Origin: Aneurinibacillus uraniidurans
Lineage (GTDB): Bacteria; Bacillota; Bacilli; Aneurinibacillales; Aneurinibacillaceae
NCBI RefSeq assembly: GCF_028471905.1
Contig: NZ_CP116902.1
Span: 3,522,501 to 3,562,500, forward strand
Direction of reading: 5' to 3'
Length of the DNA stretch: 40,000 bases
The notes beneath the pieces were generated by a model, which ran no database searches, had not been told where the DNA came from, and saw nothing but the letters and a program-made list of their open reading frames with translations. Position 1 is the first letter of the stretch. Each line of letters starts with the position of its first letter. Below, piece after piece: positions 3,203-13,613 of this stretch. The translations under genes were made by a program, and so were the position numbers.

Positions 3203-3448
3203 GTTTTGTGCCTCCTGATGCATTTGTTTATTAATGTCTTTCACAGTTCAAATACTACTAGACGCTTCTGAAATTCAATTAATGAAATACTAAACAAGTA
3301 TTAAAAAATTAATTAAAAAATTTTTATACTACGGAAAAAGAGGGGCTAATCACCACCTTTTTACTGGTATCTTATAAAATCTTCCCCGGACTGACTTCTT
3401 CCTCGTTATCACAGACAGTCAGTTATCTATCTACCTCTCCTCTCAATT

Positions 3449-3464
3449 TGAGGGAATTCCCTCA
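3449..3464. promoter_or_regulatory. 16-bp perfect palindrome, possible operator
   Basis: TGAGGGAATTCCCTCA is self-complementary over 16 bp, in the 475-bp gap (3203-3676) between the PepSY gene and the VOC gene. No coding sequence was recognised in this gap. It otherwise holds a plus-strand hairpin terminator (3547-3571) and the VOC-gene terminator. The bound factor, if any, is unknown. Confidence 0.35.
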
Positions 3465-3546
3465 TACAATTCTTCGAACGGGTACAGTATAGTGAAGTAG
3501 AAGATGATTTAGTCATCCTCTCTGAGGTGATAGAACGTTTAACTTA

Positions 3547-3571
3547 GCCGACCTTTGTGTCGGCCCTTTTT
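3547..3571 (+). terminator. Plus-strand terminator without an upstream gene
   Basis: GCCGAC, a 6-nt loop, GTCGGC, then CCTTTTTG. No plus-strand gene precedes it, so it may end a small untranslated RNA. The upstream 60 nt form two small hairpins (GATGA/TCATC and CCTC/GAGG). A very similar terminator occurs at 6000-6021, also without an obvious gene. Confidence 0.6.
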
Positions 3572-3613
3572 GTTTCGTTCCCTCAATTATGCAATTTTTT
3601 ATAATCCTGAAAC

Positions 3614-3646
3614 AAAAAATCCCCACCGCCCGAAAGGGCAGTGGGG
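3614..3646 (-). terminator. Terminator of the VOC-family gene
   Basis: Hairpin 3621-3631 with 3636-3646 (CCCCAC and GCCC arms, one mismatch, GAAA-type loop). On the minus strand it is followed by ATTTTTTG. Confidence 0.85.
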
Positions 3647-3676
3647 AATCGTATTTTTAGGAGTATGTGTACTTCC

Positions 3677-4093
3677 CTATTGTTTAGATTTTGTGTAATT
3701 GAGGTCCCATATTACTCCGAAATAATCCCTAACCTTAGCAAATTTTGCGCCCCAAAAAGTATCCTGTAACTCCATTAAAACAGAACCTTTTTGGCTTAAA
3801 GCATTGTACAATTTCTGAATTTCTTCTTCGCTTTCAAGTTCAAGAGCTAGTGAAATATTATTTCCCTTTTCAACCGACTGACCTAAAAATGTATCAGAAA
3901 CCATTATAAATAAATCATCTTTTTTAAATTGAGCATGCATAATCTTGTTATCCATTTCTGGAGGAGTAGGAAAGTCTGCCTGTCCAAAAGTTTGGATCCC
4001 TAATACCTCTCCCTCAAAAACATCCTTATAATATTCTAATGCTTCTCTAGCATCACCATTAAACGTGAGATACGGGGTTGCTTGCTGTTTCAT
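3677..4093 (-). CDS. VOC/PhnB-like small protein
   Basis: A 138-aa protein starting MKQQATPYLTFNGDAREALEYY, the usual opening of PhnB-type members of the vicinal oxygen chelate (glyoxalase/bleomycin resistance) superfamily. The segments HAQFKKDDLFIMVSD in the middle and WGAKFAKVRDYFGVIWDLN near the C-terminus match the beta-strand pattern of the single VOC module. The ATG at 4093 is preferred, with GGAG 8 nt upstream; two in-frame starts 6-9 nt further up are too close to that site. Substrate and metal dependence cannot be told from the sequence. Monocistronic, with its own terminator. Confidence 0.85.
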   Translation of the reverse strand: MKQQATPYLTFNGDAREALEYYKDVFEGEVLGIQTFGQADFPTPPEMDNKIMHAQFKKDDLFIMVSDTFLGQSVEKGNNISLALELESEEEIQKLYNALSQKGSVLMELQDTFWGAKFAKVRDYFGVIWDLNYTKSKQ

Positions 4094-4200
4094 GTACATC
4101 ACTCCTTTTGTTATGTATTTCTTTATTATATAGAATCACGATGTAAATTTCGAATTGGAACAAATCGGTTGATTTACTGGGACATATGCTCTTCTGGGCA

Positions 4201-4230
4201 AAATAAAAAGGAGCAGCTTTTCGCTGCTCC
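4201..4230 (-). terminator. Terminator of the STAS-domain gene
   Basis: GGAGCAGC (4210-4217) pairs with GCTGCTCC (4223-4230). On the minus strand it is followed by TTTTTATTTT. Confidence 0.9.
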
Positions 4231-4239
4231 CTCACCTAT

Positions 4240-4599
4240 TTATTCTTGTGTGATCCATTCCCACGCTTCATTCTGTTGTTCAAGATCGAAGTACTTCATA
4301 TCAGCTTTAATAAAATAATCTTCTATTTTAATAATCGGCTTCATCCACTTCTGATCACTCACTACAGCAACTTTGTCGTAATACTTATAGAATTCCTTAT
4401 TAAATTCTATATCTTCTAAAATGAAGTCCCAGGAAACTCCAGTGTATTCTCCGACCATCATCAGCACTCGAATCTTTCCATAACGATTAGCTGTTTCCCG
4501 GAAAGCTTGCTCAACACCATGGAAGTCCTTTTTCGTTATCTTTTCACTGACTTCAATCGCTACAACAGCATCACTACGACTCTCTATTACTCTGATCAT
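4240..4599 (-). CDS. SpoIIAA-like STAS/SEC14-type protein
   Basis: Cytoplasmic protein of 119 aa. The ATG at 4599 follows AAGGTGG by 5 nt and begins MIRVIESRSDAVVAIEVS; an open frame extends further upstream but has no ribosome site. The order of strands and helices (IEVSEKITKKDF, then RVLMMVGEY, then DKVAVVSDQKW, then FDLEQQNEAWEWI at the end) is that of the SpoIIAA-like STAS family found widely in bacteria. These proteins are not anti-anti-sigma factors in a proven sense, and their role is unknown. It stands alone, with its own terminator. Confidence 0.8.
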   Translation of the reverse strand: MIRVIESRSDAVVAIEVSEKITKKDFHGVEQAFRETANRYGKIRVLMMVGEYTGVSWDFILEDIEFNKEFYKYYDKVAVVSDQKWMKPIIKIEDYFIKADMKYFDLEQQNEAWEWITQE

Positions 4600-4745
4600 G
4601 GAGACCACCTTCCCTTCTCTATTTTCTATTCGATATAGAGGTGGGTTGTCCTTGTATCCCGCAGCAAAATATATGACAAATATGTGGTCAAAGCAAGCCC
4701 AGTCAGCGTACCGTATCCACCTGCAACTACAACACAAGGTTATGC

Positions 4746-4772
4746 AAAAGAAAAAGCACCGCGATGGGTGCT
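4746..4772 (-). terminator. Terminator overlapping the stop of the winged-helix gene
   Basis: AGCACC (minus strand), a 6-nt loop, GGTGCT, then TTTTCTTTT. The 5' arm includes the stop codon of the gene ending at 4771. Confidence 0.85.
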
Positions 4773-4956
4773 AATGTTTTTGCCTAACTACATATTTTTC
4801 ACTTTCGGTCCCAACCATCTCAATTTTGTAAGCTTTGAGCAATTCATCAACAGTAGGCATTATTTCTTTATCGCTCATTCCTGTTGCCTTTGCAATTTCT
4901 TCGCGACTTTTTGGAACTTCTTGTTCTTTTAGATACGTAATAACTTTTTCTTTCAT
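4771..4956 (-). CDS. Small winged-helix-like DNA-binding protein
   Basis: A 61-aa protein. The ATG at 4956 has GGAGG 7 nt upstream. The sequence MKEKVITYLKEQEVPKSREE, then IAKATGMSDKEIMPTVDELL, then a basic strand with YVVRQKH, is the compact helix-helix-helix-wing pattern of a minimal MarR/ArsR-like fold without a dimerisation domain. No partner gene is linked. The function is not recognised; DNA or protein binding is inference from the fold. Confidence 0.75.
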   Translation of the reverse strand: MKEKVITYLKEQEVPKSREEIAKATGMSDKEIMPTVDELLKAYKIEMVGTESEKYVVRQKH

Positions 4957-5107
4957 GCTTATCCCTCCATTTTCCTTATTTATTATGTACAATGAAAAAA
5001 TATACATGTATAAAACAAAAGACCATCTTTCTTAAAACGGAACCTACCTTCCTCACTATTTACCTAATATGATGTAGAAGTCACACCTAACATGGAGGCG
5101 ATTTATA

Positions 5108-5290
5108 TTGTCCGAAGCCAATAAAAAATACAACGGTTATGACACAACCATTGTTTATGACTACAAAGAGTACCCCGATACTGTCAGTGGGCGCTGTGAT
5201 AATTGTGGTAACGCCCATTTCAAAAGCTCTGTTAAGGATACGATTTTCCTTAGAGAATGCAGAGAGTGCAGTATGAAGAAAAGTATTTGA
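5108..5290 (+). CDS. Small zinc-ribbon protein, TTG start
   Basis: A 60-aa protein starting at TTG (5108), with GGAGG 9 nt upstream. It has two Cys pairs, CDNC (30-33) and CREC (51-54), separated by about 17 residues: a classical four-Cys zinc ribbon. The rest is polar, with a tyrosine-rich N-terminus (KKYNGYDTTIVYDYKEY). A terminator begins immediately after the stop. The gene is divergent from the small winged-helix gene, about 150 bp apart. Function unknown. Confidence 0.75.
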   Translation: MSEANKKYNGYDTTIVYDYKEYPDTVSGRCDNCGNAHFKSSVKDTIFLRECRECSMKKSI

Positions 5291-5317
5291 CCCTGCGAAA
5301 ATGCAGGGCTTTTGTTT
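5291..5317 (+). terminator. Terminator of the zinc-ribbon gene
   Basis: CCCTGC (5291-5296), loop GAAAAT, GCAGGG (5303-5308), then CTTTTGTTT. It abuts the stop codon. Confidence 0.85.
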
Positions 5318-5320
5318 GCA

Positions 5321-5357
5321 AAAGAAAAAGACCTGCCTCATGAATCATAGAGGCAAG
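5321..5357 (-). terminator. Terminator of the 43-aa gene
   Basis: Stem 5332-5339 with 5350-5357 (8 bp, one G-U pair). On the minus strand it is followed by TCTTTTTCTTT. It faces the terminator of the convergent zinc-ribbon gene. Confidence 0.75.
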
Positions 5358-5373
5358 CCTTTCTGGTTGGAAC

Positions 5374-5505
5374 TTACTTTGTAGCAGCAACTCTTAACTG
5401 CTCATTCTGTTTGAGCAATTGCGCGAACGTTTGAGAAGGGGTTGTTGTAATATTGAGAGGACCTTTCCCTTTTCCTCCCCAAAATCTAGGAAGCGACGGA
5501 ATCAT
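5374..5505 (-). CDS. Unrecognised 43-aa protein
   Basis: A short gene with all signals present: GGAGG 7 nt before ATG at 5505, 43 codons, TAA, and a terminator 17 nt later. The product begins MIPSLPRFWGGKGKGPLN. The middle is Thr/Ser-rich (ITTTPSQTFAQLL) and the end is polar, KQNEQLRVAATK. It has no membrane segment and no Cys. The basic Gly-Lys N-terminus could contact nucleic acid or spore layers, but no family is recognised. A 16-bp palindrome lies 65 bp upstream. Confidence 0.65.
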   Translation of the reverse strand: MIPSLPRFWGGKGKGPLNITTTPSQTFAQLLKQNEQLRVAATK

Positions 5506-5569
5506 ATCAAAACCTCCTTTCTGTATTACCCTTGATAAATATATTCTAACAGGATATGTAAGATGAAAA

Positions 5570-5585
5570 TGTAATTCGAATTACA
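5570..5585. promoter_or_regulatory. 16-bp perfect palindrome upstream of the 43-aa gene
   Basis: TGTAATTCGAATTACA is self-complementary over 16 bp, at about -65 from the 43-aa gene start. The half site TGTAATTC resembles operators of dimeric repressors, but the factor is unknown. Confidence 0.4.
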
Positions 5586-5999
5586 GAGCTGCATTTTTTA
5601 TATGATCATTTACACTACACTAACTGTAAAGGAAGTAGTATACAATACATTAACTCCTTTGTTATATCGATTAAAGGACTGTAATTAACATAGACCACCC
5701 TTCCAGCACCTCCTGTGCATCTGTTCGACAAAAAGAACGATTCACCTGCAACTGTAACGCAACCGAATAATCACCCGGAATACCTATTCACTTCTTCTCA
5801 TCCTCCCTTATCATTTTTTGAAACTCTTATCCATCTACAACGTATAGTAAAGCAAGTCGAATTTCTTACTCCCCCTAATGGAGCTAGCCAATGTGCCGGC
5901 TCCTTTTTTGAAACCTTTTTACATTTTTGCACGTATATAACAGTGACGTATCATTACTCCCTCTATTCCTTGATAAGGAAGGAATAGACACTCACTTTT
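5586..5999. other. Intergenic region with no supported gene
   Basis: AT-rich DNA. An open frame from GTG at 5715 has no ribosome binding site and runs straight through an intrinsic terminator, so it is not called. Two plus-strand terminators (near 5880 and 6000) suggest that one or more short plus-strand RNAs arise here. No -10/-35 pair could be assigned with confidence. Confidence 0.5.
5880..5909 (+). terminator. Plus-strand terminator in the intergenic region
   Basis: GGAGCTAGC (5880-5888) pairs with GCCGGCTCC (5895-5903), with one G-U pair and one mismatch. TTTTTT follows. Confidence 0.65.
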
Positions 6000-6021
6000 G
6001 CCGACTATTGTCGGCTTTTTT
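6000..6021 (+). terminator. Second plus-strand terminator without a gene
   Basis: GCCGAC, loop TATT, GTCGGC, then TTTTTT. Its arms are the same as those of the hairpin at 3547-3564. Confidence 0.75.
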
Positions 6022-6219
6022 ATGTGTAAAATTGCTGTATTACGAAACTTATTTCACACCCTCATTTATATAAATATTGTAGTTTTATTGCTCAAGTATA
6101 GAGTTTGTCTCGTTCGTTTTTTTTCATATTGCATATGATAATAGCGAGAGTATGCTGATACAGGATGATAGAATGGTAGGTAAAATCACCCCGCAGTATA
6201 TTCTCCTAACTCCTTGAGA

Positions 6220-6259
6220 TGGCATGTTAACATGGGAAACCATTAGCATGCCATTTTTT
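6220..6259 (+). terminator. Terminator-like hairpin ahead of the CDGSH gene
   Basis: Outer stem TGGCATG (6220-6226) with CATGCCA (6247-6253), inner stem ATGG/CCAT closed by GAAA, followed by TTTTTT. Its last bases are shared with the 49-bp palindrome at 6251-6299, so the two structures exclude each other. Confidence 0.65.
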
Positions 6260-6299
6260 ATGTAACTATTAGCATGCTAAATAGTTACATAAAAAATGG
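6251..6299. repeat. 49-bp near-perfect palindrome
   Basis: Perfect 20-bp arms (6251-6270 and 6280-6299) flank a 9-nt centre that contains the palindrome AGCATGCT. The motif ATTAGCATGC occurs at 6242 and again at 6269. This could be a transcript hairpin, a protein binding site or a mobile-element end. Confidence 0.75.
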
Positions 6300-6417
6300 A
6301 GTTGTATACTTTCATCCGACCTTTCGCAAAATCACCGCGTTGTGAGCCACCTGCCAACACACTTAGCACTGACAGGCAACCAACTCTCCTTAGCTGCTTT
6401 TCATTTCCGTGATGCAT
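6277..6417 (-). CDS. Possible 46-aa peptide, or structured RNA
   Basis: Minus-strand ATG at 6417 preceded by AAGGA at 5 nt. The frame reads 46 codons, with GCLSVLSVLAGGSQRGDF in the middle and a stop inside the palindrome. The same DNA can close a long hairpin: GGAGTTG near 6297 can pair with CAACT-CTCC near 6389, with a T-run beyond it on the minus strand. It may therefore be a folded RNA rather than a gene. It is divergent from the CDGSH gene, with 46 bp between starts. No family recognised. Confidence 0.3.
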   Translation of the reverse strand: MHHGNEKQLRRVGCLSVLSVLAGGSQRGDFAKGRMKVYNSIFYVTI

Positions 6418-6463
6418 ACTTTTCCTTACCTTTTGAAAAGTTAGGTATAGGGAGGTGAAAAAT

Positions 6464-6652
6464 ATGGATGAAATTAAGGTAATGGACAATGCTTATTTCT
6501 TAGTATCTGGCGAGTTTACTTTACTCGACGGCGAAGGAAACAAGATCGAAACCAAACAACCGGCTGCTTTATGCCGTTGCGGACTTTCAACGAATCAACC
6601 TTTCTGTAACGGAGATCATAAAGGCAAATTCGAAAGCGCTGTAAGAGCTTAA
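6464..6652 (+). CDS. CDGSH iron-sulfur domain protein
   Basis: A 62-aa protein. The ATG at 6464 has GGAGG 8 nt upstream. The C-terminal half holds CRCGLSTNQPFCNGDH, the CDGSH-type cluster motif (C-x-C-x2-S-x3-P-x-C-x-G-x-H). It uses three Cys and one His to hold a [2Fe-2S] cluster; the residue usually Asp after the third Cys is Asn here. The N-terminal strand segment (YFLVSGEFTLLDGEGN) is usual for the small soluble bacterial members. Its role in cells is probably electron transfer or redox sensing. It is monocistronic, ending in a terminator. Confidence 0.92.
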   Translation: MDEIKVMDNAYFLVSGEFTLLDGEGNKIETKQPAALCRCGLSTNQPFCNGDHKGKFESAVRA

Positions 6653-6659
6653 TCTTTGT

Positions 6660-6695
6660 AACACCTCTTGATCTAAAGGGGTGTTTTTATTTTTT
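6660..6695 (+). terminator. Terminator of the CDGSH gene
   Basis: AACACCTCTT (6660-6669) pairs with AAGGGGTGTT (6676-6685), with one G-U pair, then TTTATTTTTT. Confidence 0.88.
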
Positions 6696-6795
6696 AGCCA
6701 TCTACAAACTCGGCACCGGCAAGCATCTCCTTGATCTCTGCCATCGCCTGGTTGATCTTTTCGCGAAACACGGCTTTGATAAGGCCTGCTTTCAT
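6694..6795 (-). CDS. Unrecognised 33-aa helical protein
   Basis: ATG at 6795 with AGGAG 8 nt upstream, then 33 codons and TAA. The product reads MKAGLIKAVFREKINQAMAE, then IKEMLAGAEFVDG, an amphipathic helix with a strict alternation of charged and hydrophobic residues. It overlaps the T-run of the convergent CDGSH terminator. It resembles in size and style the broken small gene at 11,166-11,271. Function unknown. Confidence 0.6.
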   Translation of the reverse strand: MKAGLIKAVFREKINQAMAEIKEMLAGAEFVDG

Positions 6796-6913
6796 AAAGA
6801 TTGCTCCTTCCTTGTAGGATTTTCCACTCACCTATCGAATTTTGGTTATAGGAGGAACGATTACTTTAGCGAGTGGCTTTTCTTCCAAGTTCAGATAGAC
6901 AGGAGATGTAAAT

Positions 6914-7147
6914 ATGGATTTAGAATCTTTGTTTAGCAACCTACAAGTTGACCTCAATTGCCCTGGTTGCAATCATCAATTTCCAGTTGCCTTTTTGGCA
7001 TTTTTCGGACCAAAAAACGTCGTGATTTGTCCGAACTGCAACTCCTCTATCGAGATTTAACTGCATGAAGAATCCAAGCAGGCAACAGAAGAAATAACTC
7101 CTACACTTAATGACTTGGAAGATACTTTTAAAAAGTTTGGGCGCTAG
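6914..7147 (+). pseudogene. Zinc-ribbon protein gene interrupted by a stop codon
   Basis: ATG at 6914 follows AGGAG by 8 nt. The frame codes MDLESLFSNLQVDLNCPGCN and then a second Cys pair (CPNC, 39-42), giving a four-Cys zinc ribbon, and meets TAA at 7058-7060. The same frame then continues without another stop for 28 codons (LHEESKQATEEITPTLNDLE, then DTFKKFGR) to TAG at 7147. The continuation looks like a natural acidic/amphipathic C-terminal helix, so the TAA is probably a nonsense mutation in a protein of about 77 aa. The 48-aa upstream part could still be made and bind metal. Confidence 0.65.
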
Positions 7148-7309
7148 TTTTCAGCTGTAAGGAGTGAAAAAGAATCACATCGGCAAATTCATCTTCACTC
7201 CCTCCCTATTGCTGAGCGAATTCAATTACTAACCTTGTGTTTTGTGCACAAGTAGTCGAGGGAAAAACGTTAGAAGAGTTTTACGCTAAAGATGGAGGTA
7301 TAGGACTAA

Positions 7310-8383
7310 ATGGGGTTTAACTTTCGAAAAAGCATTAACCTTGGTGGCGGTATTCGATTAAGTGTTTCTAAGAGTGGTCTTGGAGTAAGTGCAGGAGTAA
7401 AAGGGCTGCGGGTAGGTGTAGGACCTGGGGGTGCGCGTGCTACTGCTTCAATTCCTGGCACCGGTCTATCCTATACTACCTCTCTTGGTCCTTCAAGGTC
7501 TGCTCGAAGAAGACAAACTGAACTACAGCAGCGGCAAGCTCAACGTATGGCTGAATTAGAGCTAGCTCAATATGAAGTAGATGTATACGAAAATCAAATA
7601 GAATTACTAAAGTCTATGCATAAAGAATGCTCACCATCAATTAGCTGGCAGCAGCTTAATCAGATGCCTCCACCTTTTTTGCATGGGAATCCCGGACCGA
7701 ATGAACTGCATGCTCAGAATGAGCTTGATAATTATAAACCAGGATTTATTGATAAAATTTTTGGTCGAACAGACTCCAAACTTTCCGATTTAAAAAATGC
7801 GATAGAAGAAGCAAAACAACTTGATAATCAAAAATACGAAGAATGGGAGGCGTTAAAAAAACTCTCTCATTCAGTTATTCAACAGGATCTAGATTCCTAT
7901 GTTCAAGTACTAAACGAATTCGCCCCTTTTGAAGAGCTCGATCATGTAGGAAGTAATTTTGAAGTTTCGCTTTTCCCGACAAAATCAGAAGTAACATTGT
8001 ATGTTAACTCTGATGAGGTTATCCCAGCGGAAGTAAAGTCTTTGACGAAAACCGGGAAACTTTCTATTAAGAAAATGACTAAAACGCAATTTTATGACAT
8101 CTATCAAGACTATGTATGCAGTTGTTTACTCCGTGTAGCGCGTGAAATGTTCGCTATCTTACCACTTGAAGAAGTGTATATCCATGCGGTTGGTGAATCT
8201 CTTGACAGTGCAACTGGTCATGAGAAGCAGGAGGTTATTTTATCAACTTGCATCACTAGAAGTATCTTAGAAAGTTTGAACCTTGACTCTATCGATTGCT
8301 CCGATGCCATGAGTAATTTTAAGCACAACATGAAATTTGCAAAAACTAAAGGATTCCAGCCAGTAGAAAAGTTTCTCTTTTAG
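7310..8383 (+). CDS. DUF4236-domain protein
   Basis: A 357-aa protein. Residues 1-60 (MGFNFRKSINLGGGIRLSVS, then Gly-rich strands ending PGTGLSYTTSLG) are the DUF4236 domain, a short beta-rich N-terminal module of unknown role seen in phage-linked and chromosomal proteins. Residues about 65-105 are a Gln/Arg-rich coiled coil. The remaining 250 aa are a mixed alpha/beta region not recognised. No signal peptide or membrane helix. GGAGG lies 11 nt before ATG, a little far. The base composition is AT-rich like its neighbours, and it sits among broken genes in accessory DNA. Confidence 0.85.
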   Translation: MGFNFRKSINLGGGIRLSVSKSGLGVSAGVKGLRVGVGPGGARATASIPGTGLSYTTSLGPSRSARRRQTELQQRQAQRMAELELAQYEVDVYENQIELLKSMHKECSPSISWQQLNQMPPPFLHGNPGPNELHAQNELDNYKPGFIDKIFGRTDSKLSDLKNAIEEAKQLDNQKYEEWEALKKLSHSVIQQDLDSYVQVLNEFAPFEELDHVGSNFEVSLFPTKSEVTLYVNSDEVIPAEVKSLTKTGKLSIKKMTKTQFYDIYQDYVCSCLLRVAREMFAILPLEEVYIHAVGESLDSATGHEKQEVILSTCITRSILESLNLDSIDCSDAMSNFKHNMKFAKTKGFQPVEKFLF

Positions 8384-8577
8384 GACTTTTTTAAAACAAA
8401 TCAACAATTTACAAGCAAGATATTATTTTAACTATCTCAGAAAATTCTTTTTCGGGAAGTATAAGTCTTTCCTAACATATCGCAAATTACTGGATACCCT
8501 GAAAAGATAGTGGAAAAATATTTTCAGCTTGTGTATCAAAATGATTAACTGCTCTACTCGCCTTATATGCTAGGTAG
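8384..8577 (+). other. Gap with a possible gene remnant
   Basis: No intact gene. An in-frame stretch at about 8472-8547 reads PNISQITGYPEKIVEKYF and ends QLVYQND before a stop. It looks protein-like but has no start, and may be the tail of a decayed gene. Confidence 0.3.
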
Positions 8578-8899
8578 GTAATTATTTTTGAGCTTTATTC
8601 GGAAGCAGCCAAAGAAGAAAGCTCTTATGCTCAATTTATGGTCGGCTATTCATATCTCAAAGGAACAGGCGTTGAAAAAGATTACGAAAAAGGAATTCAG
8701 CTATGTCTAAAAGCTGCAGAACAAGGGGACCCAAGGACAGCTTCTTATGGGCTCCTTATATGAAAAAGAAACCGATGTTAAACAAGACTATCAAAAGGCT
8801 TTAGGCTGGTATAATAAAGCTGCTAAGAGTGACGATCATTCTGGAAAAGAAGCAAAAGACCACCGTGATGCATTGTTAAAGAAAATGAAAAAAGTATAG
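8578..8899 (+). pseudogene. Decayed Sel1-repeat protein gene
   Basis: A 5'-truncated and frameshifted Sel1-like (TPR-type) reading. The first frame, from 8578, reads AQFMVGYSYLKGTGVEKDYE, then KGIQLCLKAAEQGD, with the Sel1 consensus features (Y-x3-G-x-G-V-x-x-D-Y and A-A-x-Q-G). It ends in TGA at 8761. The second frame takes up near 8730 (GQLLMGSLYEKETDVKQDYQ, then KALGWYNKAAKSDD) and runs to TAG at 8899. Joined, they give about two repeats. One frameshift and the absence of any start codon or ribosome site make this a pseudogene. Confidence 0.8.
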
Positions 8900-8919
8900 T
8901 CATTCCATCAAAATTCTTT

Positions 8920-8942
8920 GCCCCTTCAGGGCTCTTCTTTTT
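8920..8942 (+). terminator. Weak terminator after the Sel1 remnant
   Basis: GCCC, loop CTTCA, GGGC, then TCTTCTTTTT. Short stem. Confidence 0.45.
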
Positions 8943-8968
8943 CACCATAAATCAGAACGTATATTCTG

Positions 8969-8989
8969 TTATACACAAGTTTATCCACA
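8969..8989 (+). promoter_or_regulatory. Two DnaA-box sequences
   Basis: TTATACACA (8969-8977) and TTATCCACA (8981-8989) both match the DnaA consensus TTATNCACA, in the same orientation with starts 12 bp apart, in AT-rich non-coding DNA. Two boxes are not an origin by themselves. They may be chance or part of an element's replication or regulatory region. Confidence 0.4.
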
Positions 8990-9052
8990 CTATTCACATA
9001 AAGAAGGCGATGAACAATGCGAAAAATTCGCTTTAGCACACTAAAGCTGGTC

Positions 9053-9135
9053 AAAACAAAAACCCCTTATATATCAAGGGGTTTCGCACACGGCTCTCCT
9101 CACAATCCGAGCAGTAGCCATAAATCTCAAATTTA
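9053..9135. repeat. Direct repeat copy A: duplicated zur 3' end
   Basis: 83 bp identical, except one base, to 11,524-11,606 (offset 2,471). It contains the zur terminator hairpin and the last 51 bp of zur coding sequence on the minus strand. The single mismatch (9086) destroys the TGA stop in this copy. Similarity extends weakly to the left (a CTTTAG/CTAAAG hairpin followed by TGGTCAAA in both copies). Probable displaced attachment site or segmental duplication. Confidence 0.9.
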
Positions 9136-9828
9136 AAAAACGGGTATTTCGTGGACTTATCATAAATTATTGATGTGCGATGAATCCTTAATTTATAAGG
9201 ATTTTGGTGAAATGCTCATTACATCAGTTAACACCTCTGACATATGTGCGTGGTCATTTTTGTGGTCAATGTGGTCAAATATTTGATCAGTGGTTAAAGG
9301 AAGCATGTTCATCATCGAAAACTCTTTCTCTCCTCTAACCTACCTTTATCTTATGCCCAGGTAAGAAAAAAACATACGATATAGTGCAGAAAAGAATGTA
9401 TAAATGCAAGTAAGCACAAAAAACTTAAATTTCCATAAAACACTCTGATGAAAACGCATGTTTTTTAGAGAATACCTAGTTTTTATATTAGCATGAAACT
9501 TGCTTTTTATAATTAACATACTAAAAGGTGCCTTCAATATTTGCTACCTCTTAAAGTGGGAGCAAGATTCCTTCCTTATCTCACTCCTTATTTGTATTTG
9601 ACTTGTGACAATACCAGTAGTCAAGTGAAAGCATAAAAACAACTATATAATAGAATATTCGATATGGATTTCCATTTTTCAGCATTTGTTATATACTTAC
9701 AATTATGCACTTTGATTTTTTCGTTTAAATTGATTTTAAAACAAAGCTACAGAATCACATACCAGAAAGAAAGAGGACGAGGCTGTTTAATATTTGTTTC
9801 TAGTTTGTTTAATTAGGGGGGGCATTTA
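9136..9828. other. Non-coding stretch at the left end of the 2.47 kb segment
   Basis: No supported gene in about 690 bp. It holds a small hairpin (AATCCTTA 9183-9190 with TAAGGATT 9196-9203) and three GTGGTCA words between 9251 and 9280, similar to the GGTCAAA words near 9050 and 11,483-11,518. A minus-strand 63-codon frame at 9346-9537 and a 40-codon frame at 9193-9315 lack convincing start signals. Confidence 0.5.
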
Positions 9829-10980
9829 ATGAAAAGAATAAAATCAATCTATTCGTTTTTTCTTTCTGTTACGGTCTTATTTTCAATGTTTACATGGTTT
9901 TCATCTGGTAATATAGTGTACGCAAAACCATCTTGGGTGCCTGTTGGAACCGCAGGTTTCTCTGCTAGTCCTTTCCGCGAACCCTCTTTTGCTATCGATA
10001 ATGGTACACCTTATGTTGCTTTTCAAGATTGGGAAAATGATCATAAAGCGACTGTCATGAAGTTTAATGCTACAAGTTCAAGCTGGGAACTAGTTGGAAC
10101 CGCAGGCTTCTCACCTGGTCCTGCTTACAATCTCTCTCTTGTTATCAATAACGGTACACCTTATATCGCTTTTCAAGACAAGAGTAACAATAAAGTAACT
10201 ACTATGAAGTTTAACGGCACAAGTTCAAGCTGGGAACTGGTCGGAACCCTTGGGGAATCTCCCCACCCTGCTGATGAGTTTTCTCTTGCTGTCGATAAGG
10301 GTATACCTTATATCGCTCTTCAGGAGTGGGAAAACAATCGTAAACTGACTGTCATGAAGTTCAATAGCATAAGTTCAAGCTGGGAACCGATCGGAACCAC
10401 AAGTTTATCTGCCTATACCGCCGTCGACCCATCACTTGTTATCGATAAAGGTACACCTTACTTAGCTTTTTCAGATTGGAACAACAATTATAAAGCGACC
10501 GTACTAAAATATAACGGTACAAGCTCAAGCTGGAAGCCTGTCGGAACTGCAGGTTTCTCTACCGGTCCTGCTTACGTCTCCTTTGTTATCGATAATGGTA
10601 CGCCTTATATCGCTTTTGCAGACGACAAGAATGCCAAAGTAATTATCATGAAGTTCAACAGCACAAGCTCAAGTTGGAAGCCCATTAAAACTACAGGTTT
10701 GTCCTCCTATACAGTTACAAATCTCTGCCTTGCTGTTGATAAGGGTACGCCGTATGTCGCCTTTCAGGATCTAGGGAAAAATAATAAAGCGACCGTCTTA
10801 AAATTCAACAACACAAACTCAAGTTGGAATCTTGTTGGAATCAGAGCCTTCTCATCCGGCCCTGCTTATAGTATTTCCTTTGCCATCGATAAGGGTACGC
10901 CATATGTCGCTTTTACAGACGATGGGAACAATGGTAGAGCAACTGTCATGAAATTTCCTACTCCTACAGCAGGCAAATGA
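9829..10980 (+). CDS. Secreted seven-repeat beta-propeller-like protein
   Basis: Exported protein of 383 aa. Signal peptide 1-32 (basic start, hydrophobic core, VYA cleavage). The mature part is seven near-identical repeats of about 50 aa from residue 35 to the end. Each has the pattern SSSW-x-x-(V/I)GT-x-x-(F/L)S, then (A/V)-I-D-x-GTPY(V/I)AF-x-D, then a (V/T)MKFN strand. Seven W- and GTPY-containing four-strand units fit a seven-bladed propeller with a closed ring, which is inference from periodicity. There is no SLH, LPXTG or membrane anchor, so it is probably released or wall-associated. RBS: AGGGGGGG about 6 nt before ATG. It is the only intact gene in the segment flanked by the zur-end repeats. 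Confidence 0.85.
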   Translation: MKRIKSIYSFFLSVTVLFSMFTWFSSGNIVYAKPSWVPVGTAGFSASPFREPSFAIDNGTPYVAFQDWENDHKATVMKFNATSSSWELVGTAGFSPGPAYNLSLVINNGTPYIAFQDKSNNKVTTMKFNGTSSSWELVGTLGESPHPADEFSLAVDKGIPYIALQEWENNRKLTVMKFNSISSSWEPIGTTSLSAYTAVDPSLVIDKGTPYLAFSDWNNNYKATVLKYNGTSSSWKPVGTAGFSTGPAYVSFVIDNGTPYIAFADDKNAKVIIMKFNSTSSSWKPIKTTGLSSYTVTNLCLAVDKGTPYVAFQDLGKNNKATVLKFNNTNSSWNLVGIRAFSSGPAYSISFAIDKGTPYVAFTDDGNNGRATVMKFPTPTAGK

Positions 10981-11056
10981 TATTTATACCATGAAGCAGG
11001 CGACGACTAGGGTGAATTGGTAGCTGTAAAATAAGAATACAACTAACTTTTAAAGA

Positions 11057-11093
11057 GGAGTTAACTCAAAAAGTTATGAGTTAGCTCCTTTTT
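11057..11093 (+). terminator. Terminator of the propeller gene
   Basis: GGAGTTAACTCA (11,057-11,068) pairs with TGAGTTAGCTCC (11,077-11,088), with one T-G pair, then TTTTT. Confidence 0.9.
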
Positions 11094-11165
11094 GTTATTC
11101 TTTCGTTTGGCTGCTTAAGCATTTGGTGACTGATAACGCTACACCAGCGCTACGATTTTTAACTT

Positions 11166-11271
11166 TTATACGTTCACCTTCTTCATCCCTGCTGCTTCTC
11201 GGACCGTATCAGCCAGACGACCAACCCCTTCCAGCTTTCATTTCCAGATATTCTCCTACCTTCTGTGCCAT
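11166..11271 (-). pseudogene. Frameshifted small-protein gene
   Basis: The minus-strand frame from ATG 11,271 reads MAQKVGEYLEMK and then shifts. After removing one A from the AAAG run it continues as KLEGVGRLADTVREAAGMKK, then VNV, ending in TAA at 11,166-11,168. The joined product would be about 34 aa, an amphipathic helical peptide. No good ribosome site precedes the ATG. Probably a decayed copy of a small-protein family. Confidence 0.5.
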
Positions 11272-11322
11272 TTAGAATAATATATGTAAAACGAGATCGG
11301 CATTTTTTGTTCGGTGAAGAAA

Positions 11323-11376
11323 TAAAAAAGCAGCCCTGCGCTCTCAATTCAACAGAGAACACAGGGCTGCTTTTTT
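11323..11376. terminator. Strong bidirectional terminator beside the tRNA fragment
   Basis: A perfect 15-bp stem (11,323-11,337 with 11,362-11,376) with A-run and T-run on opposite sides. On the minus strand it directly follows the tRNA-Leu 3' fragment and is likely the native tRNA terminator carried along with it. Confidence 0.88.
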
Positions 11377-11391
11377 CATGCGTTTCTATGA

Positions 11392-11449
11392 TGCGGTCGG
11401 CGAGACTCGAACTCGCACGATCATGGATCACTACCCCCTCAAGATAGCG
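11392..11449 (-). pseudogene. 3' part of tRNA-Leu(GAG), 5' part missing
   Basis: On the minus strand this reads anticodon stem CTATC, loop TTGAGGG (anticodon GAG), stem GGTAG, a long variable arm with GATC/GATC, T-arm GCGAG-TTCGAGT-CTCGC, acceptor strand CGACCGC and discriminator A. No CCA is encoded. The D-arm and 5' acceptor strand (expected GCGGTCG) are absent: upstream sequence diverges just before the anticodon stem, into TTTTTTGCACTGAC. Such 3' tRNA fragments are the usual leftover of integration by tyrosine recombinases. It cannot be a working tRNA. Confidence 0.88.
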
Positions 11450-11523
11450 TCAGTGCAAAAAAGTCGCTTTAGTCTACTAAAGGTGGTCAAACGGGAATTT
11501 TCAGCAGCTTGTGGTCAAAGACA

Positions 11524-11555
11524 AAAACAAAAACCCCTTATATATCAAGGGGTTT
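11524..11555 (-). terminator. Terminator of the zur/znu operon
   Basis: AAACCCCTT (11,531-11,539) pairs with AAGGGGTTT (11,547-11,555), 9 bp perfect. The minus strand continues TTTTTGTTTTTG. It overlaps the zur stop codon. Confidence 0.9.
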
Positions 11556-11606
11556 CACACACGGCTCTCCTCACAATCCGAGCAGTAGCCATAAATCTCA
11601 AATTTA
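11524..11606. repeat. Direct repeat copy B: native zur 3' end
   Basis: The partner of 9,053-9,135, with 82 of 83 bases identical. Here it is the intact 3' end and terminator of zur. Left of it lie a CTTTAG/CTAAAG hairpin and GGTCAAA words similar to those left of copy A, with about 35 extra bases. Confidence 0.9.
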
Positions 11607-11977
11607 TGATCCGTAATCCGAAACCCGTCCGGCTCGCCAAACATTCCATCCAGCGGACATGATCGAATATGGCGCGTCTTTCCACACGACAGGCAAATCA
11701 GATGATGATGGTGCTCATCCATCGAGCAACGAAACCGGTATTTTCTCTCCCCACCCAGCTCCGTTACCTCGACAATGTTCAAATCTGCAAACAACGTAAG
11801 ATTCCGATACACCGTATCAAAACTAAGTGCCGGATATTCCTTCTGCATACGCGACAACATCTCGCGTGCCGACATATACCGCTTCTCCTGCGCAAAAATA
11901 CGTACCATCTCTTCCCGTTTGCCGGTATACTTATATCCCTTCTCTTTCAAAAGCTGTAATGCCTGCTCGACAGTCAT
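11555..11977 (-). CDS. zur: Fur-family zinc regulator Zur
   Basis: Metal-responsive repressor of 140 aa. The N-terminal winged helix (1-80) includes the DNA-recognition stretch LSFDTVYRNLTLFADLNIVE. The C-terminal dimerisation domain has the regulatory metal ligands around HHHHLICLSCGKT and the structural zinc Cys pairs CLSC and CSDC. Assigned as Zur rather than Fur or PerR because it is the last gene behind the zinc transporter genes, with 19 bp separating it from znuB; this is inference from context. Zinc-bound Zur would repress the operon at the site ahead of znuA and so regulate itself. Its 3' end is duplicated at 9,053-9,135. Confidence 0.88.
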   Translation of the reverse strand: MTVEQALQLLKEKGYKYTGKREEMVRIFAQEKRYMSAREMLSRMQKEYPALSFDTVYRNLTLFADLNIVEVTELGGERKYRFRCSMDEHHHHLICLSCGKTRHIRSCPLDGMFGEPDGFRITDHKFEIYGYCSDCEESRV

Positions 11978-11996
11978 TACTTCTCACCGCCTTTAT

Positions 11997-12830
11997 CTAA
12001 GAGTTACGCACCCTTTTCCCCAATAGTACGATAACAAGCAAGAGCACAGCAACCAGTACAATCGTTCCGCCTGACGCCAGGTTAAATGTGTATGACAGCA
12101 TTAAACCCGAGATCACCGATATTTCCCCAAACAAGATCGCATAGACAAACGTTTGACGGAAACTGTTCGCTAGCTGCAGCGCTGCTGCGACCGGCAGCGT
12201 AATCAGTGCGGACACGAGCAAAATCCCGACAACCTGCATCGAGATACTAATCACAATCGCCACAAGTATACTGAAAATCACATTAACTACGCCGCGAGGC
12301 ACACCTGAGATACGCGCTGCTTCTTCATCAAACGACAAATACAACAGCTCTTTATAAAACAACCAGACCACCACGATCACAATTGCACTCGCGACCATAA
12401 CGCGAATCACATCTTGTTGTGTCACCGCCAGCAGGCTTCCAAACAAATATCCGAACAAGTCGACATTAAATCCATTCGCTAAGCTAATAAGCACGACACC
12501 CAAGCCAATTCCGGTCGATAAAATGATCGGAATCGCCAGCTCCTGATAGAATCGATAGGCAGCACGCAGCTTATCAATCATAAATGCACCCGCAACAGAA
12601 AATGCCATCCCCATATAAATCGGGCTGACACTTTGAAAAAACGGGATGCTCTGTCCAAGTAAAAGACCCGCCGCCACGCCGGAGAGTGTAATATGCGAGA
12701 GCGCATCCGCAATCAGCGACAACCGCCGCACGACCAGAAATACACCAATTAATGGGGCAACCAACCCGATCATCAGCCCCGACAACAGTGCATTCTGCAT
12801 AAACGTATAATGTAAGATTGCTTCTATCAT
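11997..12830 (-). CDS. znuB: Zinc ABC transporter permease ZnuB
   Basis: Inner-membrane permease of the ABC-3 family, 277 aa, with about eight hydrophobic segments. The start region (MQNALLSGLMIGLVAPLIGV) and the RRLSLIADALSHITLSGVA segment are the family hallmarks; the latter is the conserved loop that meets the ATPase. It starts 15 bp after znuC, and AGGAG lies about 10 nt ahead of ATG. It works with ZnuC and the lipoprotein ZnuA to import Zn(II). Manganese or other metals are possible for this family, but the His-rich ZnuA and the linked Fur-type gene favour zinc. Confidence 0.93.
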   Translation of the reverse strand: MIEAILHYTFMQNALLSGLMIGLVAPLIGVFLVVRRLSLIADALSHITLSGVAAGLLLGQSIPFFQSVSPIYMGMAFSVAGAFMIDKLRAAYRFYQELAIPIILSTGIGLGVVLISLANGFNVDLFGYLFGSLLAVTQQDVIRVMVASAIVIVVVWLFYKELLYLSFDEEAARISGVPRGVVNVIFSILVAIVISISMQVVGILLVSALITLPVAAALQLANSFRQTFVYAILFGEISVISGLMLSYTFNLASGGTIVLVAVLLLVIVLLGKRVRNS

Positions 12831-12845
12831 GTTTCCTACTCTCCT

Positions 12846-13613
12846 CTAATGGTCGTGGTGATGGTCATGGTGCAGCACATGTACATCATGTCCATACGAC
12901 CGGAGCAAAATTTCCGCACGGTTTTCTTCAAACTCTTTCGCTCCTCCATGGTAAAACAACTTATGATTCAAACAGGCAATCGAGTGCATTTTCGTACTAA
13001 CAGCACCCAGGTCATGCGATACAAGGATCATGGAGATGCCTCGCTCACGATTGAGACGCTGCAGCAACTCATAAAACCTCTCTTCTGACTGCGCATCTAC
13101 CCCAACTGTAGGCTCATCCAAAATAAGCACATCCGGTTCGCTTACAAGCGCACGGGCGATAAAAACACGCTGCTGTTGACCGCCGGATAAACGCCCGATA
13201 TTACGGTCAGCAAACTCGCCCATCCCCACTGTTTCAATCGCCAGCTGTACCTTCTCCCGCTCAGCGCGTCCCGGACGACGGAACAGCCCCAGCTTGCCAG
13301 TTAGCCCCATCATGACCACTTCAAAGACAGTCGCCGGAAAGCCCGAGTTAAAGCTGTTCGCCTTTTGCGATACATAGCCAATGCGTGGCCACGCATCGAA
13401 TTTCTGAAGCGGCTGACCGAACCAATGGATCGTGCCATTTGTCAGCGGAAGCACACCCAAAATTAATTTTAACAACGTGGACTTGCCAGACCCATTCGGT
13501 CCGACAAGCCCTAACATTTCACCGCGCCGAAGCCCGAAGGTAATATCTTCGAGTACCGGCCGCGCTTCATATTGATGAGAGATATGCTGCACATCAAGAA
13601 TTAATTCACTCAC
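12846..13613 (-). CDS. znuC: Zinc ABC transporter ATPase ZnuC
   Basis: ATP-binding subunit of 255 aa. Walker A GPNGSGKST (38-46), Q-loop YVSQK (80-84), signature LSGGQQQR (142-149), Walker B VLILDEP (162-168) and switch His200 are all intact. The C-terminus ends in a His-rich tail (HVLHHDHHHDH), which may bind zinc directly. It starts at GTG, whose last bases overlap the znuA stop (GTGA), indicating coupled translation. Confidence 0.94.
   Translation of the reverse strand: MSELILDVQHISHQYEARPVLEDITFGLRRGEMLGLVGPNGSGKSTLLKLILGVLPLTNGTIHWFGQPLQKFDAWPRIGYVSQKANSFNSGFPATVFEVVMMGLTGKLGLFRRPGRAEREKVQLAIETVGMGEFADRNIGRLSGGQQQRVFIARALVSEPDVLILDEPTVGVDAQSEERFYELLQRLNRERGISMILVSHDLGAVSTKMHSIACLNHKLFYHGGAKEFEENRAEILLRSYGHDVHVLHHDHHHDH

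Follow-up and report, generated by a model that had tools for sequence, protein, structure and literature searches.

Probable remains of a gutted prophage, bounded by attachment-site repeats, at the 3' end of zur in Aneurinibacillus uraniidurans

Why does the 3' end of zur occur twice, a short distance apart, on the chromosome of Aneurinibacillus uraniidurans? In the stretch analyzed here (the window: 40,000 nucleotides, positions 3,522,501 to 3,562,500 of the forward strand of NZ_CP116902.1, assembly GCF_028471905.1), positions 9053-9135 and 11524-11606 form a direct repeat in which 82 of 83 bases are alike, in the same orientation and 2,471 bp apart from start to start. A first-pass annotation, made from the sequence alone, had described this repeat and proposed that the segment it bounds, 9053-11606, is an element integrated at the 3' end of zur. 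The repeat was reproduced with its one mismatch, and the proposal is supported and can now be extended to the type of element, as putative integrase tails, arm words on two sides and a lysin tail point to a phage. Very probably, the segment is what remains of a prophage (element A) that was inserted by a tyrosine integrase at the 3' end of zur. Element A is classed as a remnant and not as a prophage, its integrase gene being reduced to six codons. The coordinates of its parts are collected in Table 1.

The overlap of the repeat with zur, previously given as 51 bp, is real but comes to 52 bp of the zur open reading frame (ORF) when the stop codon is counted. The sole mismatch converts the zur stop from TGA to CGA in the left copy, which is how the distant copy lost its stop codon, as had been observed. 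The predicted fold of the zur terminator is a hairpin (-13.3 kcal/mol, z -3.85). Likeness between the two sites extends leftward: 9015-9055 and 11451-11491 agree at 83%, and between this stretch and the core, the left copy has suffered a deletion. In the window's own genome (G000; 3,853,322 bases, one contig), which was compared with its relatives in a family set of 11 genomes (G000 to G010), the query 9015-9135 matched two places only at E <= 0.001, with no third copy. A third zur core was not found on the same strand of window 3245-8900 (score 21; shuffle mean 20.9, maximum 32), and the opposite strand of that interval gave a weak score of 33 at about 6657, the shuffle maximum being 29. Scores in one further locus (L040) lay above its shuffles, a comparison that is not usable as the stretch holds masked Ns. 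Among inverted repeats of at least 18 nt in 8000-13000, only a tRNA terminator hairpin was found, and none of that length lies at the segment ends. By eye, none of the segment's ORFs of at least 60 amino acids looks like a transposase; the family scans covered the repeat protein.

Both 83-bp copies have a putative integrase remnant of their own on the left flank. The one at the left copy, intB, translates as MNNAKNSL plus stop, and 8922-9019 is 80% identical to the leader of an intact integrase gene of G006, a genome of the same genus (L050 201-300). Within this old leader, AGAACGTATATTCT at 8954-8967 resembles an SOS (LexA) box. A whole integrase gene is absent beside the attachment site of element A, where six end codons are all that is found; the earlier statement that the segment has no integrase holds for the whole gene, but not for the putative end codons beside both copies. 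Arm-type repeats, which are putative arm sites, are present on both sides within element A (11483-11519 and 9250-9298). The latter set has a close counterpart in G007, a genome of another genus, as 9245-9281 is 94.6% identical (35/37) to L046 4777-4813, at a nearly equal distance from the hairpin. The hairpin is separated from the first arm word of this second set by 187 bp in the window, by 186 bp in G007 and by 174 bp in an element of G003 that is described below. The pattern GTGGTCAN{2,5}GTGGTCA has 36 matches in 10 of the 11 family genomes and none in a backward-read control; two overlapping matches fall in the own genome, both at 9250-9277, and its sole tandem GTGGTCA pairs are there. The integrase stop codon lies inside a recurring inverted repeat, CTTTAG-N4/5-CTAAAG (TAAAG in some), at 11467-11482 of the window and in relatives, and the same inverted repeat also occurs at some integrases with other arm words.

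Table 1. Features of the zur locus, in window coordinates
Feature	Position	Strand	Basis
Remnant of an older integrase gene (intB): leader, then ATG AAC AAT GCG AAA AAT TCG CTT TAG at 9010-9036; gene body missing	8905..9036	+	
Older integrase-side arm word CTGGTCAAA, without a second arm; same variant as in G004	9047..9055	+	
Core 1: displaced 3' end of zur (52 bp, stop lost) with terminator hairpin; outer attachment site of element A	9053..9135	+	
Second arm set, inside element A: GTGGTCA at 9250, 9262 and 9271; GTGGTTAAA at 9290	9250..9298	+	
Repeat protein with repeats of about 49-50 residues, a putative signal peptide by eye and weak kelch/beta-propeller similarity; cargo gene	9829..10980	+	
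Last 19 codons of a phage lysin gene (VGRLADTVREAAGMKKVNV, then stop)	11169..11225	-	84% identical to the C-terminus of the lysin located at the end of the G003 interval
3' part of a tRNA-Leu gene (anticodon GAG) with its terminator, abutting the integrase tail	11324..11450	-	Matches to tRNA-Leu genes
Integrase end of element A: last six codons plus stop, SAKKSL	11452..11472	+	Alignment with G006 AMKSAQNSL plus stop
Integrase-side arm words of element A, GTGGTCAAA at 11483 and 11511	11483..11519	+	
Core 2: terminator hairpin with the 3'-terminal 52 bp of zur; inner attachment site, contiguous with zur	11524..11606	+	
zur, intact target gene, 140 amino acids	11555..11977	-	

The zur gene was found in all 11 genomes of the family set, and a query with its flank matched in nine (G000-G007 and G010), while G008 and G009 gave no flank match, their zur flanks being different. 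In all nine, an integrase tail, arm words and a core could be aligned, with an altered stop codon in G004. Only one of the nine has an intact integrase: in G006, a 380-residue tyrosine integrase (Pfam PF00589 at 113 bits, arm-binding PF14657 and SAM-like PF14659) adjoins the 3' flank of zur. It ends in AMKSAQNSL plus stop, followed by GGTGGTCAAAATGTGGTCAAA and then by the zur terminator. The stop codon marks where the arm region begins and is separated from the hairpin by 72 bp. The G006 contig begins 297 bases before this gene, and the rest of that element lies beyond view. Longer integrase fragments are present at two of the nine sites (61 residues in G007 and 32 in G003), and in the remaining genomes, as at both window copies, approximately the last six to eight integrase codons are alignable and tblastn detects none of them.

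Two zur cores occur in two of the nine genomes, G000 and G007. The cores of G007 (4585-4667 and 10353-10435) differ by three mismatches and have 5.7 kb between them, which encodes a holin that matches PHROG and a GH25 lysin, and the G007 repeat stops at the same zur base as that of the window. In G002, an M15-type phage lysin is found about 0.7 kb from zur. The first-pass annotation had named a relative with a single copy as the expected comparison, and G004, the closest relative by zur (97% identical), has one core there. The G004 flank has in common with the left copy of the window the CTGGTC arm variant and the lack of a second arm, and an older integrase tail is still visible in it. Since this single core shares the arm traits of the left copy, the left copy appears to mark the old site, and the flank of the right copy to have come with the insertion. 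A graded series of partial duplications was not seen in the 11 family genomes, nor was the repeat scattered through its own genome; both readings were rejected on the own-genome search and the 11-genome comparison of zur flanks.

Named zur loci were also searched, with flanks of up to 10 kb (shorter for some). With the L053 integrase as query (tblastn, E <= 1e-5), the only matches among loci that included 80 named zur loci (the best 80 of 107) were L053 itself, L046 and, from the G006 site, three loci. Of these 80 named loci, 3 have paired arm words in the 320 bp downstream of zur, and all 3 are named Aneurinibacillus. A single TTTGACC lies downstream of zur in L066, and L125 has only 65 bases there.

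Taken together, the near-identical cores, the integrase tail, the arm sets, the single core of G004 and the intact integrase of G006 argue that the two copies are attachment sites. The integrase would have bound the GTGGTCAAA arms and joined the phage core to the chromosomal core, and element A would have entered beside an older element of the same class, the integrase remnant of which lies just outside core 1. The zur locus is accordingly best read as a tandem of two decayed prophages. Nearly all of the phage genes would have been lost later, leaving the attachment sites, the cargo gene, the lysin tail, the tRNA-Leu fragment and the six integrase codons. Element A is probably fixed in place unless a matching integrase is supplied in trans.

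What lies between the two cores agrees with the inventory drawn up previously, as the propeller gene, the GGTCAAA words, the broken small gene and the tRNA fragment are all present, the small gene being the lysin tail. The repeat-protein gene, which is located between the attachment site and the lysin tail, has a best Pfam match of 41 bits, below the family cut-off of 50. The lysin tail was matched at E 4e-6 in a four-sequence search, and the matching G003 lysin itself matches PHROG endolysins. The tRNA-Leu fragment is 94% identical to G004 L044 11250-11378 and 81-84% to three tRNA-Leu loci of the own genome; its terminator forms a hairpin of -38.6 kcal/mol, and ARAGORN did not call any tRNA in the window, as would be expected if the gene is only a fragment. 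The fragment may have been left by a tRNA-Leu phage, as a relic of its attachment site, or by a rearrangement; the tRNA clusters of the own genome seem shuffled relative to those of G004.

A fuller version of the same layout is found in G003. At 1749.9 kb, a related integrase with the same arms, together with a core, lies at the 3' end of a gene read by eye as RNase J, and at 1807.5 kb, there is a second core that bears the end of that gene, with a GTGGTCA arm set on one side and, on the other, a second, apparently partial integrase gene with TTTGCAAA arms. The interval between the cores is 57.8 kb, of which about 30 kb, at both ends, was examined. Seven of the eight proteins scanned there match PHROG (a nuclease, an annealing protein, a helicase loader, a holin and an endolysin; the others mostly belong to families of unknown function). 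No terminase was found in G003 in a search confined to family PF03354, the control of which matched 3 of 14 genomes. The order in G003 is that of the window at a larger scale, namely integrase, arm and core, then the second arm set, the prophage, a further integrase, arm and core, and the target gene. The G003 element has extra genes between the lysin and the outer core, which is the position of the propeller-like gene in the window.

Several observations weigh against a prophage origin of the segment. The window's integrase tails rest on a short alignment, and 11452-11472 is too short for tblastn; with the G006 integrase as query (E <= 0.1), no match was obtained in the window or in the zur flanks of G001, G002, G004, G005 and G010. 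The 19-codon lysin tail is the one recognizable phage gene inside element A, and the repeat protein has two weak matches only in PHROG. Of the 17 loci printed from the search for the GTGGTCA pattern, at least G007:C1 and G001:C200 resemble coding repeats and not attachment sites. Window 3381-9022 is missing from G004, so that its single-core site differs from the window in more than the segment itself. The tRNA-Leu fragment is hard to reconcile with a simple prophage. Moreover, G004 carries a related propeller fragment next to a tRNA-Leu gene, a long way from zur (about 174 kb, if that chromosome is circular), which suggests that part of the interior of element A may stem from another locus.

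These last points bear on a rearrangement, in which a block adjacent to tRNA-Leu (SpoIIAA-like gene, propeller and tRNA-Leu 3' end) would have been moved to zur, with the core repeat as a by-product at an existing attachment site. We regard this as unlikely, although G004 has a SpoIIAA-like gene, a propeller end and tRNA-Leu together at 3970.8-3973.4 kb and the tRNA fragment of the window is closest to that very locus. On the other hand, the G004 propeller fragment aligns best with 10525-11143, without the core, the arm set or the lysin tail, the extra genes of the G003 interval correspond in place to the propeller of the window, which has the attachment site on one side and the lysin tail on the other, and a rearrangement still requires an attachment site made by an integrase as its starting point. 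Still less probable is a small passive cassette, consisting of the propeller gene between two attachment sites and mobile whenever a related phage supplies the integrase. In its favor, the sequences of both cores and of five GTGGTCA words are intact, but the core pair has no second copy in its own genome, a whole-segment search of 61 genomes (at most four candidate regions scored in each) found no propeller next to a zur core elsewhere, and the one related integrase of the own genome (E <= 1e-40) sits at another gene and has different arms. A partial duplication of the zur end by slippage or unequal crossing-over, into which unrelated DNA was inserted later without any site-specific recombinase, would suit the shortness of the duplicated stretch and the patchwork of its interior (propeller, tRNA-Leu fragment). 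It leaves unexplained the integrase codons at each copy, the two-sided arms at near-constant spacing, the identical repeat boundary in G007 and the intact integrase at zur in G006, and we consider it very improbable indeed.

To the left of element A, window 3381-9022 is a 5.6-kb block that G004 lacks; it is bordered by a PepSY-like repeat gene and the zur flank. It carries a VOC-family gene, a SpoIIAA-like gene (with relatives elsewhere in G000 and G004) and a DUF4236 gene, the last of which matches PHROG families of unknown function. The block is probably older mobile DNA, and it may have been part of the older element whose remnant is 8905-9036. In G004 L044 8780-11378, a SpoIIAA-like gene, a truncated propeller, a TnpB-like gene (by eye) and tRNA-Leu stand together, and the part that contains the TnpB-like gene has a relative of 85% identity at 426976 of G000.

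Related integrases are found at other genes as well. The one such integrase of the own genome at E <= 1e-40 (L170, G000:2423843-2424973) has an open frame with 58% identity, lies at the apparent 3' end of mutL and is followed by GTGAGCA arms and not by GTGGTCAAA. Another integrase-tail scar (L164, G000:1409374-1409419) is apparently at the 3' end of the RNase J gene. In L169-L186, as read by eye, two direct repeats often come within a few bases after the stop codon; the repeated word is specific to the element (GTGGTCAAA, TGAGCA, TTTGCAAA, GGCACCAA, GTCACCAA, GGGGGCAAA and others), and these words look like an arm-site code. CCTT...AAGG hairpins or half-hairpins come after many, though not all, of the related integrase genes (by eye and uncounted), and the genes concerned are diverse (RNase J, mutL, suf and tRNAs, their names partly read from the sequence). 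A tentative explanation, which we do not favor but think possible, is that this integrase group recognizes a terminator hairpin (CCCCTTATATATCAAGGGG and variants) as its core. Its sites would double as host-gene terminators, the group would move among zur, RNase J, mutL, suf and tRNAs by switching hairpins, and the arm word (GTGGTCAAA, GTGAGCA, TTTGCAAA or others) would be a separate specificity code. If the hairpin is the core, then the coding end of zur was never replaced and insertion leaves the target gene unharmed; if crossover took place at the end of the repeat inside zur, then the phage supplied that coding end.

Integration at gene ends and grounded prophages, which decay after the loss of excision, are well known (PMC6379469). 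Element A resembles tyrosine-integrase prophages at gene 3' ends in its core direct repeat, its two-sided arm words, the place of its integrase gene next to the attachment site and its intact target gene, whereas it differs from them in that the integrase, apart from its last codons, and nearly all phage genes are gone and a tRNA-Leu fragment lies inside. In the phage collection, the top-ranked integrases belong to Paenibacillus larvae phages (Fernvirus; Bloom, Neutron and others), with 43.2% identity over 98% of the query. Next after the Bloom integrase gene comes GTGGTCAAAATGTGGTCAAA, which has this place at zur in G006 too; in contrast, no zur-like core is seen by eye in the 300 bases after it, and the host belongs to a different family. 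No free phage with a zur core was found. Among viral contigs, the zur-end pattern, the exact arm pattern and the second-arm pattern each gave no match and the integrase scan gave two loci, while a looser arm pattern was matched by L199 only, in which the order of arms, hairpin and a tRNA gene is the same and no integrase matches at E <= 1e-3. Stx2k phages of Escherichia coli are reported to insert at zur (PMC8065619); they have zur as insertion locus in common with element A but belong with hosts of another phylum. Among the literature matches listed, no title or abstract opening mentioned, for Bacillota, an attachment site at the zur 3' end; PMC7946995 was set aside as a zur report, both of its 'zur' matches being the surname Zurek. 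Element A is thus a new example, while gene-end prophages, their remnants and zur as a phage site (in E. coli) were already known.

For the family, these data mean that phages have landed repeatedly at the 3' end of zur, with scars in 9 of the 11 genomes. The locus also offers a worked example of how a nearly erased prophage can be read from the anatomy of its attachment sites, and the combination of core hairpin and arm words makes the choice of site by this integrase group testable.

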